The position numbers and the translations under genes were made by a program. From Sulfobacillus acidophilus DSM 10332 (lineage in GTDB: Bacteria > Bacillota > Sulfobacillia > Sulfobacillales > Sulfobacillaceae), in assembly GCA_000237975.1 (NCBI GenBank), contig CP003179.1, positions 2,696,270 through 2,760,269 on the forward strand: 64,000 nt of DNA, in the 5' to 3' direction. Below the pieces are notes generated by a model that saw only the letters and a list, made by a program, of their open reading frames with translations, made no database searches and was not told the origin of the DNA. Shown here one piece after another: positions 4,948 through 26,975 of the stretch (positions are counted from its first letter, which is position 1; the number at the start of each line of letters is the position of its first letter).

Positions 4948-6834
4948 ATGGGAAAATGGCGACGCCTATGGCCCTTGATGGCCCTCATCGCACTCGGTAC
5001 ACTCGGAGGTGTCGGCGGATCCCCGCCATCCCCGGCAATCCGGCCGGCCATCACGTTCATAGGGGGAAGTCGGCAATCTAATAGCATCTTCTCGACTCTT
5101 GGGATGTCTCCTACCGGCGCATTACTCTACGCGGATCAAAATGTCCTCGGATTATACCAAAAACGCCGGTGGCAATGGTTGACGTTCCCCGCCCCGGATC
5201 TCATCACCCACATCGTATGGACATCATCCCGCCGTGCGTTCCTTTTCCTGCAACGGGTGGGGCCACGTAATACAAGTTTTTGGCTATATGAGACCGTTGA
5301 TGACGGCCGCCATTGGCGTCGTTGGGCCCGCTTATCTTCCACCGAAGCGGATCCCTGGCTGAGTGACACGATTATCCCCGTCGCCCATCACCTGGTGGCG
5401 GTGAACTCTTTAAATGCCACCTTTCAATTGAGCCAAAAAGACGCACAAATGAGTCCTAACGGCATCCATTGGAGCCCCATCCCCCATTTACCGTCCCCTT
5501 TTATCCCCACCGCGGCGGTCGCCGGTCCGGACCATGTCCTCTGGCTAGCCGGGCTCTGGGGAGCTCAACACGGGGCCGTCCTTGCCTGGACCCCCCATCA
5601 CGTCCACCTCCTTCTCCAGGCTCCTCTCCCCTTAACCGGACTCGCTTGGCAAGACGGTCAACTGGTAGCCGTCGGTGGACAACCCGGTGGCAACATCCGG
5701 TTCGGTTTACCCGGCAGTCAAGTGGTCTATCTCAGTACCGACGACGGTCGTCATTGGCGGTTAATGCGGCAGGCTCAACAAGCCCATAACTTGACCGCCG
5801 TGTGGATCGCCAATACGGGTGTCCTCTATGCGACCGAAGGACAGGTGCCGCCGGGCGGAAATGGCCCAGGCTTTTGCTGTCTTTTGGTCAGTCATGACGG
5901 CGGCCAAACCTGGCACCCTATCGACCAAGGCATCATCAGCAGTCTGGCTTTCGAAACGAAAGACAAACTGGCTACCGTGACCAATGGCGTTCTCCTTTTA
6001 TCGTCTGATGGCGGGAGGCATTGGAACCCCGCTTTTCCTGCCGATTTACCCGTGCTGTGGGCTTATTTTTCGGGCTCTCCACTCACCCACGGATGGGCGG
6101 AAATCAATACCGGTGAGGTTAATCGTCTTGTCCATACGGCCGGTCGGCATCATGCATGGGGAATCGGCCCGTCAATCGGTGAAACCACCCCCCTCAGTTG
6201 GTTTTCCCAGGGAATCGGCATTTTACAAAGCCCGAGCGGATCTCTGGAACGCATCGATCCGACCGGTCGGTTGCAGATCATTACGCCTCTCGCATCGTCT
6301 GTCAGCACGGGTCCTGTCAGTTTTATCTCGCCGTCCCAGGGCTGGGCCGTGATCCAACTTCCCGGCCCTAGGGCCAAAAAAGGTCCCCCCATCCAATGGT
6401 TAATGGCCACCCGGAACGGCGGCCGCCATTGGATTCGGGTAGAAACCGTCCCATACCTCACCACCCTGGTCATGATAAATTCTCGTGAAGGTTATGGCGT
6501 GGGTTTTTCGGCCTGGTACCACACGGATAACGGCGGCATGACATGGACACGTTATCCGCTTCCCCCCAACCTCTTTGTCAGTGCTTTGGCCTGGAACCCG
6601 AACGGCAGCCTTTGGATGGCTGCCACCCGCAGTCAAGGGAGCCCGGTCATTTTGATCGCACGGGGTCACACCCTTACCATCACACCCGTTCCCCGGGTCA
6701 TTACCGGGCTCGGTTTTGTCAATCGCCAAAACGGGTGGGCGGTCACCGACCGCGGGTTATACGTCACCCCGGATGGTGGCCGCCGTTGGATCTTTCAACC
6801 GCTACGTTTTTCTACATTAAATGGCTTAACCTAA
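4948..6834 (+). CDS. Exported BNR/YCF48-like beta-propeller protein
   Basis: A 628-residue protein with an N-terminal signal peptide (basic MGKWRR then a hydrophobic core to about residue 25). Repeated Asp-box/BNR-type motifs occur along its length: DDGRHW, HDGGQTWH, SDGGRHW, RNGGRHW, DNGGMTW and PDGGRRW. This spacing is typical of sialidase-like or YCF48-like beta-propellers. No catalytic sialidase residues were recognised, so a structural or binding role outside the membrane is more likely than an enzyme. GAGGAGG lies about 7 bases before ATG 4948. The last ~100 bases, with the stop region, are duplicated at 8311-8419. The original 3' end overlapped the convergent PQQ-propeller gene by about 9 bases. 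Confidence 0.8.
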   Translation: MGKWRRLWPLMALIALGTLGGVGGSPPSPAIRPAITFIGGSRQSNSIFSTLGMSPTGALLYADQNVLGLYQKRRWQWLTFPAPDLITHIVWTSSRRAFLFLQRVGPRNTSFWLYETVDDGRHWRRWARLSSTEADPWLSDTIIPVAHHLVAVNSLNATFQLSQKDAQMSPNGIHWSPIPHLPSPFIPTAAVAGPDHVLWLAGLWGAQHGAVLAWTPHHVHLLLQAPLPLTGLAWQDGQLVAVGGQPGGNIRFGLPGSQVVYLSTDDGRHWRLMRQAQQAHNLTAVWIANTGVLYATEGQVPPGGNGPGFCCLLVSHDGGQTWHPIDQGIISSLAFETKDKLATVTNGVLLLSSDGGRHWNPAFPADLPVLWAYFSGSPLTHGWAEINTGEVNRLVHTAGRHHAWGIGPSIGETTPLSWFSQGIGILQSPSGSLERIDPTGRLQIITPLASSVSTGPVSFISPSQGWAVIQLPGPRAKKGPPIQWLMATRNGGRHWIRVETVPYLTTLVMINSREGYGVGFSAWYHTDNGGMTWTRYPLPPNLFVSALAWNPNGSLWMAATRSQGSPVILIARGHTLTITPVPRVITGLGFVNRQNGWAVTDRGLYVTPDGGRRWIFQPLRFSTLNGLT

Positions 6835-6972
6835 ATGCGGATCGATGAGGGTTAGCGGGATCGCTTGCATCCAATCGTAGGAGTTGTCGAGGTACATCGT
6901 GTGGCCCACAATGACCGGATTGACGATGCCGAATCGCCCACCCGGCGTGTATTGGCCGATTTCTTGCCCCGT
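6726..6972. repeat. Direct repeat copy A flanking the Abi_2 insert
   Basis: These 247 bases are repeated at 8311-8557 in the same orientation, offset 1585, without gaps and with about 7 mismatches counted by eye. Copy A holds the true 3' end of the BNR gene followed by a truncated 3' tail of the PQQ-propeller gene. Weak similarity to the PQQ gene continues to roughly 7030 and then ends. Because each copy contains the junction of the same two convergent genes, the pair marks the ends of an inserted segment. Confidence 0.85.
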
Positions 6973-7051
6973 AAGGGGAGCTAACGCCTAACCGGGGCGT
7001 TGGCCAATCAAAAGGCTCCAATCCGCCCGTACAATATTTTTCCTTGCGATC

Positions 7052-7080
7052 TTGACTCTTGAACAATGCTTAACAATAAT
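7052..7080 (+). promoter_or_regulatory. Candidate sigma-A promoter for the Abi_2 gene
   Basis: TTGACT at 7052-7057 and AATAAT at 7075-7080 are separated by 17 bases, close to the consensus. The transcript would start near 7087 and run through the 7093-7130 hairpin into the Abi_2 coding region. Confidence 0.5.
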
Positions 7081-7092
7081 GAAATTAATAGA

Positions 7093-7140
7093 GTCCACCA
7101 CGCCTCTTAACAATGCGAACCAGGGTGGACCATTTTATTT
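7093..7140 (+). promoter_or_regulatory. Leader hairpin with U-rich tail before Abi_2
   Basis: GTCCACC at 7093-7099 pairs exactly with GGTGGAC at 7124-7130, and CATTTTATTT follows. This is the shape of a weak intrinsic terminator or attenuator in the leader of the Abi_2 gene, which begins at 7153. The loop is long (24 bases), which weakens the case. Confidence 0.35.
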
Positions 7141-7152
7141 GGGGTTAAAACC

Positions 7153-8103
7153 ATGGACAGGAAAGCGCCTCCTCATAAGGAGCCAAAGACCTTCACAGAA
7201 CAACTCGAAATCTTGAAAGCCCGGAATATCGTGATAAAAAACGACGAACGAGCCATAGACGCACTCCGCCATATAAACTACTACAGGCTATCCGGTTACA
7301 TGCTTCCCTTCAAACAGTCAAAAGAGAACGTATACGACGAAGGGACCTCTTTAGAACGCATTCTGCGCATTTATGATTTCGACCATCGACTTCGAAACCT
7401 CCTATTGAGCCTACTCGAACACATCGAAATTTCTGCAAGAACCAGCATAGCGTATCATTTGGCTCATAAACATGGTCCCTTATGTTATGAAAACCATAAG
7501 CTGTTCATAAATCTGGACCGACATCAAAAACTACTTGAAGCGATAGAAAAATCAATCAAGGACGCTCGTGCTGGCCACGAACCTTTCATCATCCACCACG
7601 ACAACCGATATGACGGCAAATTGCCAATTTGGTCTTTGGTTGAGGTATTGTCCTTTGGAACTTTATCAAAGCTCTATGCGAACCTTGCAAATGAGGACAA
7701 GAAAATTATCTCAAAGACCTACTTTGGCATCCCGCCTCTTTACTTTGAAAGTTGGTTAAGAAACTTGTCCTATATACGGAATATTTGCGCCCATCATTCC
7801 CGCATCTACCATCATCCACTTACCCATCAACCGAAACTCTACGCCGACGACAAAATGTACAACGGCATTTTCGCTTCTATATTGATTGCGGGTGTACTAT
7901 GTCCACGTGATCGTGACTGGGTTGCCTTTCGGGGTGGACTGGAATCCCTGGTTGAGGAATACGAGGATTCAATTGATTTAAATCACATCAAGTTTCCGCC
8001 GGATTGGAAAGACGTCCTCTACGGAACAATTTCCAAGCGTCGCCAAAGTGCAGCAGAAAGTCGAAAAGAACATCGTAAGAGCAGCCGGTCAAGTCCCTTA
8101 TAG
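7153..8103 (+). CDS. Abi_2 family (AbiD/AbiF-like) HEPN abortive-infection protein
   Basis: A 316-residue protein of the Abi_2 family (PF07751). The conserved N-terminal motif is INYYRLSGYMLPF (residues ~48-60), followed by LERILRIYDFDHRLRNLL. Near residue 209 stands RNICAHHSR, which fits the R-x4-6-H signature of HEPN ribonucleases. Family members cause abortive phage infection, presumably by cleaving RNA. The coding sequence is clearly richer in A and T, with many AAA, ATA and GAA codons, than the flanking genes. That is a sign of horizontal acquisition. The gene is the only one between two direct copies of the host junction. The ribosome binding site is weak (GGGG about 11 bases upstream). 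No second component (methylase, antitoxin) lies beside it. Confidence 0.85.
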   Translation: MDRKAPPHKEPKTFTEQLEILKARNIVIKNDERAIDALRHINYYRLSGYMLPFKQSKENVYDEGTSLERILRIYDFDHRLRNLLLSLLEHIEISARTSIAYHLAHKHGPLCYENHKLFINLDRHQKLLEAIEKSIKDARAGHEPFIIHHDNRYDGKLPIWSLVEVLSFGTLSKLYANLANEDKKIISKTYFGIPPLYFESWLRNLSYIRNICAHHSRIYHHPLTHQPKLYADDKMYNGIFASILIAGVLCPRDRDWVAFRGGLESLVEEYEDSIDLNHIKFPPDWKDVLYGTISKRRQSAAESRKEHRKSSRSSPL

Positions 8104-8310
8104 ACCTACCCGAAATGAATCTTAGCCACAATCGTACCGGTCCCGGGTTTCCCCCTCACTCCGCCGAATGAGACCCCTCCCGTGCGCCACCATGAGGTCG
8201 ACCAATTGCCCTTTCGGTGAATCACTTCAATTCCTCGAAAATCTTCCTTAAACATCCTTATCTTCAACTTAAAAGTGCCCTTAGGCGGCATTTTGCTCGA
8301 TCGGGAGTCC
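8104..8310. other. Right end of insert, no supported gene
   Basis: About 207 bases lie between the Abi_2 stop and repeat copy B. A 61-codon minus-strand frame (8106-8291) is open but has no convincing ribosome binding site and no recognised motif. It could be a remnant of another insert gene. No terminal inverted repeats or transposase fragments were recognised. Confidence 0.4.
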
Positions 8311-8557
8311 CCAAAACGGGTGGGCGGTCACCGACCGCGGGTTATACGTCACCCGGGATGGTGGCCGCCGTTGGATCTTTCAACCGCTACGTTTTTCTAG
8401 ATTAAATGGCTTAACCTAAATGCGGATCGATGAGGGTGAGCGGAATCGCTTGCACCCAATCGTAGGAGTTGTCGAGGTACATCGTGTGGCCCACAATGAC
8501 CGGATTGACGATGCCGAATCGCCCACCAGGCGTGTATTGGCTGATTTCTTGCCCCGT
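8311..8557. repeat. Direct repeat copy B flanking the Abi_2 insert
   Basis: This is the second copy of the 247-base segment at 6726-6972. It begins abruptly at 8311 with the last ~34 codons of the BNR gene, including its stop, as an orphan tail. It continues into the true 3' end of the PQQ-propeller gene (stop at 8411-8413). About 7 scattered substitutions separate the copies, so the duplication is not brand new. Confidence 0.85.
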
Positions 8558-10261
8558 GGCAGGATTTAACGCATAGATACTGGGACCGGCCGCCAACCAA
8601 AGGACCCCGTCCGCCAGGACGGCATTGCCACGACCTGCCCCCGCCGGCCCGGCTTTGGGAATGGCAAAGCTCCAGAGTACCTGACCGGTAGATTCATTGA
8701 GGGCGTAAAAGGTCGAGGTGACCGGGCTCCCCACATAGACGACCCCGTTGGCCACCATCGCCACCCCGGCTTTATAGGCTGGCGGGGCAGCCCCCCGGCC
8801 GAGATCGGTAGACCATAGCATTTGGCCGGTGGCCGCGTTCATGGCGTACACCGCTAAATTACACGTCCCGTTGGCATGGTTGAAGTCGACCACGGAATCT
8901 TGAATCACGATGCCGTTTTGGGGATCGACCGTCGGCGAATTATCTCCCATGCCGGTATTAAAGATCGCCAAATTGGTCGGCTGGGTCCATATAATCTGCC
9001 CGGTGGCCGCGTTTACGGCCACCACATGGTTGGCATCCGAGGTGCCTACGATGACTTCCCCGGCGTGGGTTTCGGGATTGTACCAGTAGTTGGGTGACGA
9101 CATACTGTCAAACCCGCCCAGGTTGGTTTTCCACAAGACGTGGCCCGTGGTCGCCGACATGGCCCATAGGTTACCGCCACCGGTAGGTTGATAGACGGTG
9201 TTGCCGACGACGATAGGGGTGGCCATGGCATTACCATGAAAGTCCTGGCGCCAGACCAACCGGCCGGTTTGAGCATTAAAGGCATACAGTGCGGCATAGC
9301 CTAACCCTCGAACCAAGGGCGCCGTGCCCCCCGACAAATCGTACTTTAGTAGTTGGGAAAAGGGAAACCCGGTATCCCCGGCAGAGACAAATACCAATCC
9401 GTCCGCCACCAGCGGGTTACCCATAAGCGCATTAACGGTCGGTCCTGCCGTCCACAACACTTGTCCGGTGCGGGCATCCATGGCGTATAAATGATAGTCG
9501 TCCGATTCCGCATAGATGATACCGTTGACTGCCGTCACACCGACCGCGTTGCCCAAGTCCTGGGTCATCTTGACCGGTGCCGACCGTTCTCCCAAATTCA
9601 AAAGATCAGGATAGTTGGCACTAAAGGGAACCGCCGCCATTTCGGGAGTTTGCCAATGGACGCCGGCCGTTTCCCAAAGAGGGGCACCCGGCGGTGCCGG
9701 AAACACCGCATTATGGGTAGGTCCTCCGGCATAGCTCGTCCAGCTGGACGGAAAGCCCGCCATTTGGCTCGGCACCGGCGGGGCCACCCATTGGTTTACC
9801 GCTTTGAGTAAGGCATTGGGTGCCAGATTGTTCAGAGCGGTAACCGTATAGCCTTCCGCCTGAAGCGTCGCCACCGCGATCGAAGTCAATCCAATCGCGT
9901 ACACCGCCGGCTTCCCGGCGGGGGGTTGAAACGGCTGGGTGGTTTGCGACACGGCGGGAATCGCCATTTGGCTCAAGGCTTCATTCACCGTGGGGCCCAA
10001 TTGGGCCGGATTGGGCGTCGCCAACACCGGCCCGTTCAAGTGGGCCGCTAATGCCGAAGCCGCCATCCAATCCGCCGGCGGAGCATTCCCGGCTACCAAT
10101 ACCACCGCTTGCGTGCCGCTCGGAAAATTACGCTCCGCCATCTGGGCCATCATCGCAACCGACGGATCGGTGGGCTGAGGAGACATGGCACTGACTCCGG
10201 TTACCGCCATTAAAGAAACCATCCCTAGAATTCCGGCCGATGCCAGCATCGTCCGTCTCAT
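8411..10261 (-). CDS. Exported PQQ-like beta-propeller protein with cell-wall-binding-like N-domain
   Basis: A 616-residue protein with a signal peptide (MRRTML, then a hydrophobic core to ~residue 25). Residues ~45-165 contain ALAAHLNGPVLAT and VYAIG stretches typical of cell-wall-binding repeat 2 (PF04122). The remainder is a PQQ-type propeller with recurring blades such as LYAMDARTGQVLW, LYAFNAQTGRLVW, LWAMSATTGHVLW and VYAMNAATGQMLW. No cofactor-binding or catalytic residues of quinoprotein dehydrogenases were identified, so a scaffold or binding role is as likely as an enzyme. AAGGAGG lies about 10 bases before ATG 10261. The 3' end is duplicated at 6826-6972. The gene diverges from the LuxR-type regulator, which may control it. 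Confidence 0.8.
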   Translation of the reverse strand: MRRTMLASAGILGMVSLMAVTGVSAMSPQPTDPSVAMMAQMAERNFPSGTQAVVLVAGNAPPADWMAASALAAHLNGPVLATPNPAQLGPTVNEALSQMAIPAVSQTTQPFQPPAGKPAVYAIGLTSIAVATLQAEGYTVTALNNLAPNALLKAVNQWVAPPVPSQMAGFPSSWTSYAGGPTHNAVFPAPPGAPLWETAGVHWQTPEMAAVPFSANYPDLLNLGERSAPVKMTQDLGNAVGVTAVNGIIYAESDDYHLYAMDARTGQVLWTAGPTVNALMGNPLVADGLVFVSAGDTGFPFSQLLKYDLSGGTAPLVRGLGYAALYAFNAQTGRLVWRQDFHGNAMATPIVVGNTVYQPTGGGNLWAMSATTGHVLWKTNLGGFDSMSSPNYWYNPETHAGEVIVGTSDANHVVAVNAATGQIIWTQPTNLAIFNTGMGDNSPTVDPQNGIVIQDSVVDFNHANGTCNLAVYAMNAATGQMLWSTDLGRGAAPPAYKAGVAMVANGVVYVGSPVTSTFYALNESTGQVLWSFAIPKAGPAGAGRGNAVLADGVLWLAAGPSIYALNPATGQEISQYTPGGRFGIVNPVIVGHTMYLDNSYDWVQAIPLTLIDPHLG

Positions 10262-10365
10262 GTGACCAACGCCTCCTTCGAGATATGGTAGAAACTGGCG
10301 TCACCATAGCATGACTCTCTTCTGATCCGCCATTAGTCATGGTTCTGATTTTCTCTCAGAAGGCG

Positions 10366-10394
10366 TTGAATTGTTCTACTAGATGAAGTATTAT
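10366..10394 (+). promoter_or_regulatory. Promoter of the membrane LuxR-type regulator gene
   Basis: TTGAAT at 10366-10371 and TATTAT at 10389-10394 are separated by 17 bases. The element covers the in-frame ATG at 10383, so translation must start further down, at GTG 10419. Just upstream, TTCTGA (10343-10348) and TCAGAA (10356-10361) form an inverted repeat that could bind a regulator. Confidence 0.6.
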
Positions 10395-10418
10395 GACTTA
10401 TCAGGAGGAGAAAAACGA

Positions 10419-11351
10419 GTGGAGTTGTCCCTTTATCGTCCGTTCGGGGTATCCATCTCTGTCTTTCGCCTAGTTCTCCCCGTCCTATGTTTCATCGCCG
10501 TCATCAGTCACCCTCATTTCGCCTTTTGGGCGGTAACCATTGGGGTCGTCACTTTTATCGACGCCTTGACCCAATGGCGCTGGGGCAAAACCCCGGACGA
10601 CCCCCATGTGCTCCGGCATTGGACATGGCGGGATGCCGGGTATGCGCTATGGTTTTATCTCGCCTATTTGAAAGATGCTCAGGTACCCGCTTTATTGTTG
10701 GCACCTCTGGTCATTATGGAAGCATACTTCGCCTATCCTCGGCGTTTTACCCTTTGGTTCATGGCTATTGAAGGAATTCTCTTGGGCATTCGGATGAGCG
10801 TCATGGCTTGGTTGGGTCATCCCTTGATTCATCCCGGATGGCCGATTGGCATCATATTAGCCACCGGGATAGCGTGCCTATTAGCGGGAACAATCCAAGA
10901 ACGGCATCACGCTCTGGTCAAGTCGGCACGGGTGCAACAGCACGCTCGATGGGTGGTTTCGTCCATTTTACATCACACCGGACAATTAACCGGAATCGGA
11001 GAACTCTTGGCCTTATCCCAGAGATGGGAACATCTGGTCACAACGGAACCTGAACTCCCCGATCCGCGCCTATGCCAAGAACTCGCTCAGCAATTGGCCG
11101 GATTAATCCTGATGGTCGAGCGACAACAACAACTCTTAACCGAACGCGAACGGGACGTACTGCAGCTGATCCAAAAAGGCTTAAGTTACCGGGAAATTGC
11201 CACCCGTTTACGGGTCAGCGACGGCACGGTTCGCGCCCATGCAGGAAATCTGATGCGTAAAGCCAACGTCCACACCCGTCAGGAATTGGTCGACTGGGCA
11301 CAAAGCCATTATCTACTACCAAAACCGTTAGATACGGAAAGGAGAACTTAG
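10419..11351 (+). CDS. Membrane-anchored LuxR-family transcriptional regulator
   Basis: About 310 residues in two parts. The N-terminal ~165 residues contain about five or six hydrophobic segments (from LVLPVLCFIAVI to GIILATGIACLLAG), so the protein sits in the membrane. A coiled, charged linker follows. The C-terminal ~60 residues are a LuxR/GerE helix-turn-helix: LTERERDVLQLI, LSYREIATRL, and VSDGTVRAHAGNLMRKA. No receiver domain with a phosphorylatable aspartate is present, so the membrane part probably senses the signal. GTG 10419 was chosen because AGGAGGAG lies ~10 bases upstream, while the ATG at 10383 lies inside the promoter. The gene diverges from the PQQ-propeller gene and overlaps the next minus-strand gene by 4 bases at its end. 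Confidence 0.8.
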   Translation: MELSLYRPFGVSISVFRLVLPVLCFIAVISHPHFAFWAVTIGVVTFIDALTQWRWGKTPDDPHVLRHWTWRDAGYALWFYLAYLKDAQVPALLLAPLVIMEAYFAYPRRFTLWFMAIEGILLGIRMSVMAWLGHPLIHPGWPIGIILATGIACLLAGTIQERHHALVKSARVQQHARWVVSSILHHTGQLTGIGELLALSQRWEHLVTTEPELPDPRLCQELAQQLAGLILMVERQQQLLTERERDVLQLIQKGLSYREIATRLRVSDGTVRAHAGNLMRKANVHTRQELVDWAQSHYLLPKPLDTERRT

Positions 11352-25270: not shown

Positions 25271-25315
25271 TGTAGCGTGGGTGCGGTACAAAGAGAAGGG
25301 AAGGAGGTAACCTCA

Positions 25316-26461
25316 GTGGGGGTCGAACTAACGGTTAATCCTGATAGATTGATCTGGGCGATTACCCGGAGCGGAAAGGATACCGAGTCGTTGGCGGAAT
25401 CGCTCCCCCACATTCACGAATGGTTATCTGGTGCGCGAAGGCCTACTATGGCACAATTACGGCTACTCGCGCAGAAGACCTCTACTCCGTTGGGATTCTT
25501 CTTCTTGATGGAACCGCCAAAAAATGAGGATCTACCGATTCCATACTATCGTACTATGGTTGTCGGAAGTCCTGTAAAGCCAAGCCTCGACTTGATGGAT
25601 ACGCTGAAGAGCATGAGACTGCGCCAACAATGGATGCGCGAGTTTCTCACATCGGAAGGCGCCGAGCCGATCGGTTTCGTGGGACGCGCACGTCGAGACA
25701 TGCCCATTTCGGCTATTGTGGAGATTTTACGTGATGCTCTAGGCTTGACCGTAGACTGGGCAGCCAAGGAACCAAACTGGGAGTCCTCTCTACACAAGTT
25801 GGTGATTGCGGCAGAACGGGCTGGAATTCTTGTGGTGGTTAACGGCATTGTTGGGTTCAATAGTCATCGACCGTTGGATCCGGAAGAATTCAGGGGCTTT
25901 GCCCTAGTTGACAACTATGCACCGTTAATCTTTATAAACGGGAAGGACTCCAAAGCGGCGCAGATGTTCACTATCGCACATGAACTGGCCCATATCGTGC
26001 TGCAACAAAGTGCTATCTTCGATTTAAGGAACATGCAAGCATCGGAAGAACCGACTGAGCAGTTGTGTAACCAAGTTGCTGCCGAATTTCTCGTGCCATC
26101 TGAGCGGTTGCGTAAGCATTTTAACGTTACGATACCTCTTCATATTCTGGCACGGCGCTTCAAGGTAAGCGAGTTAGTGATTGCGCGGCGTGCCCTAGAC
26201 TTAGGATTAATCAAGCGCGATCAATTCTTCGAGTTTTACAAGGCCTATCGGAGTCGGGAGAGTGTTGGACGCAAGGAATCCGGCGGAAACTTTCTTTCCA
26301 CAGCTCGATATCGCATCGGCTTACCATTCAGTCATGCCATAATACAAGCAGTCCGAGAAGGAACAACGTTATATTCGGAAGCATATCACCTAACCGGGCT
26401 GAAGGGTGAGACGTTTGAAAAATACGCCAAGTTTGTGGCCAACTTGGGAAAGGACGGATAA
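25316..26461 (+). CDS. XRE-ImmA/IrrE fusion: HTH domain plus metallopeptidase
   Basis: A 381-residue protein with an N-terminal XRE-type helix-turn-helix (RLIWAITRSGKDTESLAESL, then LRLLAQKTSTPLGFFFL) and a C-terminal ImmA/IrrE zinc peptidase domain. The metal motif HELAHIVL lies near residue 222, followed by ANQVAAEFLVP-like sequence (NQVAAEFLVPSE). Family members (COG2856) cleave or regulate repressors in mobile elements and in predicted toxin-antitoxin modules. The start is GTG 25316, 8 bases after AAGGAGG; the upstream ATG-like frame start at 25277 lacks a signal. The DUF4411 gene follows after 6 bases. Base composition is lower in GC than the housekeeping genes, which suggests horizontal transfer. 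Confidence 0.88.
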   Translation: MGVELTVNPDRLIWAITRSGKDTESLAESLPHIHEWLSGARRPTMAQLRLLAQKTSTPLGFFFLMEPPKNEDLPIPYYRTMVVGSPVKPSLDLMDTLKSMRLRQQWMREFLTSEGAEPIGFVGRARRDMPISAIVEILRDALGLTVDWAAKEPNWESSLHKLVIAAERAGILVVVNGIVGFNSHRPLDPEEFRGFALVDNYAPLIFINGKDSKAAQMFTIAHELAHIVLQQSAIFDLRNMQASEEPTEQLCNQVAAEFLVPSERLRKHFNVTIPLHILARRFKVSELVIARRALDLGLIKRDQFFEFYKAYRSRESVGRKESGGNFLSTARYRIGLPFSHAIIQAVREGTTLYSEAYHLTGLKGETFEKYAKFVANLGKDG

Positions 26462-26467
26462 TCTTCG

Positions 26468-26975
26468 TTGTCCGTTTACGTTCTTGATACCAACGTCTTT
26501 ATTCAAGCCCACCGTCTCTATTACCCGTTCGATGTAGCTCCCGGATTTTGGGATAGCTTGATCGAATTCGGCCAGAAGGGAATTATTCAAAGCATTGATT
26601 GGGTCCGAAACGAAATAATCGACGGCAAAGATGCGTTGGCGGGATGGGTCAAGGGCGAGGGGGCTATTTTGTTCCGCGCCACCATCACGTCGGACGAATC
26701 CAACACAATTATAGCAGCGTACGGACGAGTCGGCTCACTCGTTAAGGCGACCGCCCGTTATCAGGATATCCATCGAGAAGGCTTTTTAGCAGGGGCAGAC
26801 GGCTGGGTGATAGCTTACGCACTAGTGATCGGAGGTACGGTTGTGACCATGGAACAACCCGCTCGCATAGGAACCAAGGGTGAAAATCCCCGATGTATGC
26901 GAAGCCATCGGTGTACCGTGGATTACTACGTACGACATGTTACGTAATTTAGGAGTTCGTCTCGGTTTTATATGA
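26468..26975 (+). CDS. DUF4411 PIN-like protein, frameshifted near the C-terminus
   Basis: A PIN-fold family (DUF4411) protein of about 168 residues. It starts at TTG 26468 with VYVLDTNVFIQ, where the aspartate is the first PIN acidic residue; FLAGADGWVIAYALV holds the later acidic residues. The reading frame as given diverges after IGTKG and ends at 26947. Removing one base near the GGG at 26878-26880 restores the family's C-terminus, KIPDVCEAIGVPWITTYDMLR, with a stop at 26973-26975 (motif split here as KIPDVCEAIG and VPWITTYDMLR). The pair with an XRE-ImmA/IrrE gene is a recurrent predicted toxin-antitoxin-like arrangement in which the PIN protein would be the nuclease. Either the toxin is inactivated, or one base is a sequencing error. 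Confidence 0.75.

Follow-up and report, generated by a model that had tools for sequence, protein, structure and literature searches.

An AbiF-type defence unit in the chromosome of the acidophilic bacterium Sulfobacillus acidophilus DSM 10332 lies between two direct copies of a 247-bp stretch of host DNA. The left junction of the insert is homologous to the host and the right junction is abrupt, with the 247 bp being the tract between them. The duplication around the cassette is real, and the cassette's entry was most likely driven by recombination. As a tentative account, to which we give somewhat less than an even chance, the AbiF toxin/RNA-antitoxin cassette entered between two convergent genes, at their 3'–3' junction, by recombination with homology on one side and without transposition, from a donor that carried a diverged piece of one of these genes. 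The stretch of DNA that was analysed, hereafter the window, spans 64 kb (positions 2,696,270–2,760,269 of contig CP003179.1) of a genome of 3,557,831 bases in two contigs, the larger of which measures 3,472,898 bases (PMC3558970).

A convergent gene junction is duplicated around the insert

The two copies occupy positions 6726–6972 and 8311–8557 and align without gaps at an offset of 1585, with 97.2% identity. An earlier note on this DNA had placed the copies at these positions with about seven mismatches counted by eye, and the alignment gives exactly seven, at 6770, 6815, 6853, 6859, 6870, 6943 and 6957. The pair is the sole repeat detected in the window by self-BLAST at a cut-off of at least 40 bp and E ≤ 1e-6 (E = 2e-116 for the pair), and genome-wide the 247-bp sequence occurs in these two copies only.

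Each copy spans a 3'–3' host junction and consists of one complete host gene end and one orphan tail. The gene for a BNR/Asp-box repeat protein (4948–6834, plus strand; Pfam BNR and PSII_BNR) forms a complete open reading frame, whose final 109 bp fall within the left copy. The gene for a PQQ β-propeller protein (8411–10261, minus strand; Pfam PQQ_2) is also complete and has its 3' end within the right copy, and the earlier description of two intact host genes accompanied by orphan tails thus stands. The near-identical stretch of the orphan PQQ tail (6826–6972, minus strand) covers the stop and roughly the final 48 codons, and the orphan BNR tail occupies 8311–8419 on the plus strand. The BNR and PQQ 3' ends overlap by 9 bp, at 6826–6834 in the left copy and at 8411–8419 in the right copy.

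Changes have accumulated on both copies. The orphan PQQ tail retains the ancestral Gly at codon 574, where the functional gene has a derived Ser, and carries the derived state at codon 603; the orphan BNR tail shows P-to-R and T-to-R changes relative to the intact gene. This pattern does not decide between one-sided entry and an older, converted duplication.

The surroundings are mostly ordinary chromosomal genes, as seen in the 23 window proteins scanned against Pfam, with the other open reading frames judged by reading. PQQ orthologues with 60–69% identity are present in sister genera, and the BNR gene has distant relatives only (best 35% identity). A weak Rfam match to Virus_CITE_4 inside the BNR gene falls under the gathering score and was put down to chance.

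The insert carries all parts of a predicted AbiF unit

The insert measures 1338 bp (6973–8310). Its only sizeable open reading frame (7153–8103, plus strand) encodes an AbiF/AbiD-type Abi_2 (HEPN) toxin/defence protein of 316 amino acids, identified by Pfam (PF07751, E = 4.6e-57) and PADLOC (AbiD, E = 4.6e-95). With a GC content of 44% versus 58–59% in the flanking genes, it is the AT-rich Abi_2 gene of the HEPN type that had been proposed. The HEPN RxxxxH motif is intact (RNICAH, residues 209–214), and Arg209, Asn210, Cys212, Ala213 and His214 are invariant in an alignment of seven proteins. A non-coding 3' spacer (8104–8310) follows the gene and meets the BNR tail abruptly, at a junction without homology. 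Nothing else in the genome matches the stretches on either side of the Abi gene.

The cassette had been described as the Abi_2 gene; the gene is confirmed, and its content extends further, since an abiF RNA and a promoter are included. The abiF RNA motif (Rfam RF03085), a putative RNA antitoxin, matches at 7095–7129 on the plus strand with 28.6 bits (E = 0.02), short of the gathering score of 37. We accept it as a predicted abiF RNA despite the sub-threshold score, because the same motif is found upstream of plasmid Abi genes, where one copy exceeds the Rfam gathering threshold, and because its stem shows compensatory pairing, with such changes in 4 of 10 pairs and 96% of the cells of the stem alignment paired, against at most 41% when the alignment is slid. 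A promoter-like, sigma-70-like element, TTGACT-17-AATAAT (7052–7080, plus strand; 10/12 in a consensus scan), precedes the RNA at a position common to the plasmid relatives. No Rho-independent terminator was recognised between the RNA and the Abi gene. Taken together, these elements make up a full AbiF unit, with a predicted promoter, abiF RNA and Abi_2/AbiD-F HEPN protein that would form a type III-like RNA antitoxin/toxin pair.

AbiF of Clostridioides difficile is toxic and is neutralised through direct binding of RNA with abiF motifs, an arrangement likened to a type III toxin-antitoxin pair (PMC12373285). By homology, S. acidophilus AbiF is probably a HEPN ribonuclease toxin restrained by its abiF RNA, and this restraint would be released upon infection. 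As in the C. difficile prophage pair AbiF/RCd22 (PMC12373285), the Abi_2/AbiD-F protein is encoded after an abiF RNA motif and a promoter. Unlike that pair, the S. acidophilus unit is chromosomal and lies outside any recognised prophage, has one recognised abiF motif instead of two, and lacks a recognisable Rho-independent terminator between RNA and gene. In comparison with plasmids, the insert DNA matches solely in the abiF RNA region; the Abi protein is less than 47% identical to its best plasmid and phage matches, and a first viral scan returned no match for a donor of the insert.

The two junctions are unlike

The orphan PQQ tail of the left copy extends past 6972, in register, to about 7033–7053, a further ~57–80 bp. 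This fringe (6973–7053, minus strand) is a strongly diverged, decayed continuation of the tail and was recovered by tblastn in a match to PQQ residues 541–616 that contains one stop. Its clear alignment (6977–7033) has ~66% identity, with gaps and one in-frame TAG, and was equalled by 4 of 20,000 dinucleotide shuffles. The sequence left of 8311, searched for decayed remnants of the BNR gene, gave no convincing match (p = 0.15 for the longer stretch). The fringe is thus confined to the sequence beyond 6972, with no BNR-side counterpart at the right copy, which argues for homology-driven entry. Because the junctions are unlike, homologous recombination on one side is favoured over a clean staggered break. 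The target duplication of about 250 bp proposed in the earlier note accordingly holds in length, at 247 bp; it is not a clean target repeat, given the diverged PQQ fringe on one side.

The route that we infer from these junctions has two steps. The incoming DNA would have carried a diverged PQQ gene piece beside the cassette, within which homologous (homeologous) exchange would have linked donor to host at the left junction, 6972/6973. The other end of the donor would have been attached by a non-homologous join at 8310/8311, further back in the same stretch of host DNA and probably on the sister chromosome. Because this second join lies before the first, the intervening 247 bp would have been duplicated, with both host genes left whole. 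An end-joining step is possible because the S. acidophilus genome encodes Ku. Homology-facilitated illegitimate recombination has been seen in transformable bacteria; one paper cites it and also describes duplications that arise from interchromatid integration (PMC3784515). The two 247-bp copies could now recombine with each other, excising the cassette as a circle.

An empty, single-copy site was not found, and none of the 60 relatives searched keeps the BNR–PQQ pair. The search compared the BNR gene, the PQQ gene and the 4.6-kb locus with 60 relatives or the family, among which there is no other species of the genus Sulfobacillus, and both proteins with GTDB contigs. This outcome is explained by the distance of the BNR relatives and by the PQQ orthologues, which in the loci that were read never stand beside a BNR homologue. 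With no empty or alternative allele found, insertion and duplication could also be separate events.

Direct repeats often bracket other Abi_2 genes

We surveyed Abi_2 loci of Bacillota, of sister genera, of viral contigs and of a small number of plasmids, leaving out the S. acidophilus window, for direct repeats of at least 25 bp (E ≤ 1e-3) within 500 bp on either side of the Abi gene. As controls we took the other open reading frames of these loci. Several criteria had been tried on the first set before this one was chosen, and it was then kept unchanged. Repeats bracketed 6/55 Abi genes versus 5/269 control frames in that first set, 3/36 versus 3/187 in the viral and plasmid set, and 10/63 versus 7/245 in the third. 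Pooled, 19 of 154 Abi_2 genes are bracketed, compared with 15 of 701 neighbouring frames (Mantel-Haenszel odds ratio 6.3; within-locus permutation p = 5e-5), with the proviso that loci drawn from one class are incompletely independent. When only repeats of at least 200 bp are counted, the difference between Abi genes and control frames is not significant (3/154 vs 7/701). The check suggested in the earlier note, for duplications of similar size at other Abi_2 genes, therefore yields an enrichment of repeats in general and no significant one of long repeats.

A host-tail or host-terminator reading is clear in about 9 of the 19 bracketing cases. One cassette lies between duplicated guaA tails (L310), and another between duplicated rlmH tails, with SCC-like TATCATAAGTGA (L209). 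Two further loci are independent parallels with the same orientation as S. acidophilus, with the Abi 3' end towards the intact host gene and part of that gene repeated upstream of Abi: a queA tail with a 279-bp repeat adjoining a large serine recombinase (L280), and, in a genome from the family of S. acidophilus, a methyltransferase gene with a decayed repeat of ~400 bp (L230). Among the remaining cases, the repeats at L335, L333 and L362 are apparently dispersed or of low complexity, the flanks of L188 resemble IS3-type transposase gene ends (recognised by eye, with no Pfam match), and the repeats at L363, L218, L263 and L334 may be the cassette's own terminators. The guaA and rlmH genes are classical integrase targets, and because some of the cases sit at such targets, more than one route probably underlies the flanking repeats across Abi_2 loci. 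The guaA and rlmH cases themselves favour site-specific recombination at those loci.

Other routes of entry

These integrase targets bring up a reading that we hold to be rather unlikely for the S. acidophilus locus, namely a CIME-like element without an integrase, whose repeats would be attL/attR-type copies of host 3' ends, whose recombinase would have acted in trans or since been deleted, and whose leftover cargo would be AbiF. An element that integrates at the 3' end of a gene copies that end and restores it, and CIMEs retain their att sites though they have no integrase (PMC5704250). The S. acidophilus locus shares with such elements at guaA and at the 3' end of rlmH (SCC) a duplicated gene end, an intact gene and cargo between them, and the Abi_2 cassettes between guaA, rlmH and queA tails, the last beside its serine recombinase, fit the same scheme. 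It differs from them in that its 247-bp repeat far exceeds the usual att core and covers two gene ends. Furthermore, neither an att core nor a recombinase turned up in the insert or in the 23 window proteins scanned against Pfam, and there is no third copy of the repeat in the genome. The diverged PQQ fringe, too, is left unexplained by site-specific recombination.

The fringe can also be read as the remnant of an old, originally longer duplication whose flanks have decayed and whose 247-bp core has been kept alike by gene conversion between the BNR-end-coding and PQQ-end-coding copies. We regard this as improbable. It would account for the contrast between a gapped fringe of ~66% identity with a stop and a core of 97%, and it accords with the mismatches on both copies, including the derived Ser574 of the functional PQQ gene and the ancestral Gly of the orphan; against it, no decayed BNR sequence was found on the left side of the right copy. 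The fringe is short, at ~57 bp, and a converted 247-bp core within an older, longer duplication could leave such a remnant.

Transposition was rejected in favour of recombination: no terminal inverted repeats were found at the insert ends, the absence of a recognisable transposase or integrase from the insert noted earlier was confirmed, and the duplication is 247 bp rather than short. An integron gene cassette was likewise set aside, as an attC-like fold is absent (insert ends at z of -0.2 to 0.9 against shuffles). Also improbable is the repair of a widely staggered break, a route put forward in the earlier note and taken here with filled-in overhangs and capture of the cassette by end joining, which could give a direct duplication of any length and suits both the presence of Ku and the non-homologous right junction, but does not predict the in-register PQQ continuation of the insert's left end, as good a match to which arose in only 4 of 20,000 shuffles.

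Discussion

Insertion with long target duplication has reportedly been described for restriction-modification systems by Nobusato et al. in 2000 and Furuta et al. in 2010. Three papers describe how such systems insert with long, variable target duplications (PMC3874152, PMC1643837, PMC3031569), one of them giving lengths "in the order of 100 bp" (PMC3874152). The earlier statement that known transposons duplicate only a few bases is right for transposons and incomplete as a survey of mobile units, since these accounts of restriction-modification units report long duplications. The S. acidophilus locus probably belongs with this kind of insertion. Like restriction-modification insertions, it consists of a small addictive or defence unit with no transposase between long direct duplications of host DNA; unlike them, its cargo is an AbiF toxin with its RNA, and one of its junctions shows diverged homology on one side only. 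Insertion with long duplication itself has been described before, and what is new here is the one-sided fringe and the enrichment of repeats at Abi_2 genes.

It has long been asked how single defence or toxin-antitoxin genes spread when they have neither transposase nor integrase. The S. acidophilus locus displays the two junctions of such an entry, of which the left is homologous and the right abrupt. The 154 further Abi_2 loci surveyed provide a testable, statistically supported hint that duplicated host sequence often bounds AbiF units, extending to AbiF a pattern reported until now mostly for restriction-modification systems. More speculatively, AbiF cassettes may be mobile in their own right, entering repeatedly at gene 3' ends and bounded by direct repeats of neighbouring gene tails, by a recombination route that they share with restriction-modification units. 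If so, addiction and one-sided homologous recombination would stand in for a transposase in the spread of AbiF.

Repeated gene ends and Abi_2 genes at other loci

At locus L209 (4590–6107), an Abi_2 gene is bracketed by a duplicated rlmH 3' end, and no recombinase lies between the copies. Both copies include TATCATAAGTGA, which is likewise present in SCC attachment sites. Another Abi_2 neighborhood, L372 (2690–4862), contains a 40-bp tail coding KFTPKKYRKE-stop that occurs on a Bro-N gene, on an HTH-like gene and, as an orphan, next to Abi_2; different genes bear one and the same C-terminal end. At L230 (6158–6799), in a related genome, the Abi_2 gene has been shortened by an internal deletion and retains its abiF RNA.

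Genes of the window locus and its surroundings

Elsewhere in the window (25277–26947), a gene for an IrrE/M78 peptidase-like protein is paired with one for a DUF4411 protein, in a layout resembling a toxin-antitoxin or stress pair.

The PQQ gene flanking the AbiF cassette and the adjoining LuxR-type gene (10383–11351; together 8411–11351 of the window) are also linked in sister genera, for example at L087–L096. Because this pairing is kept in sister genera, the PQQ end of the locus is old; the BNR side, by contrast, lacks such conservation.
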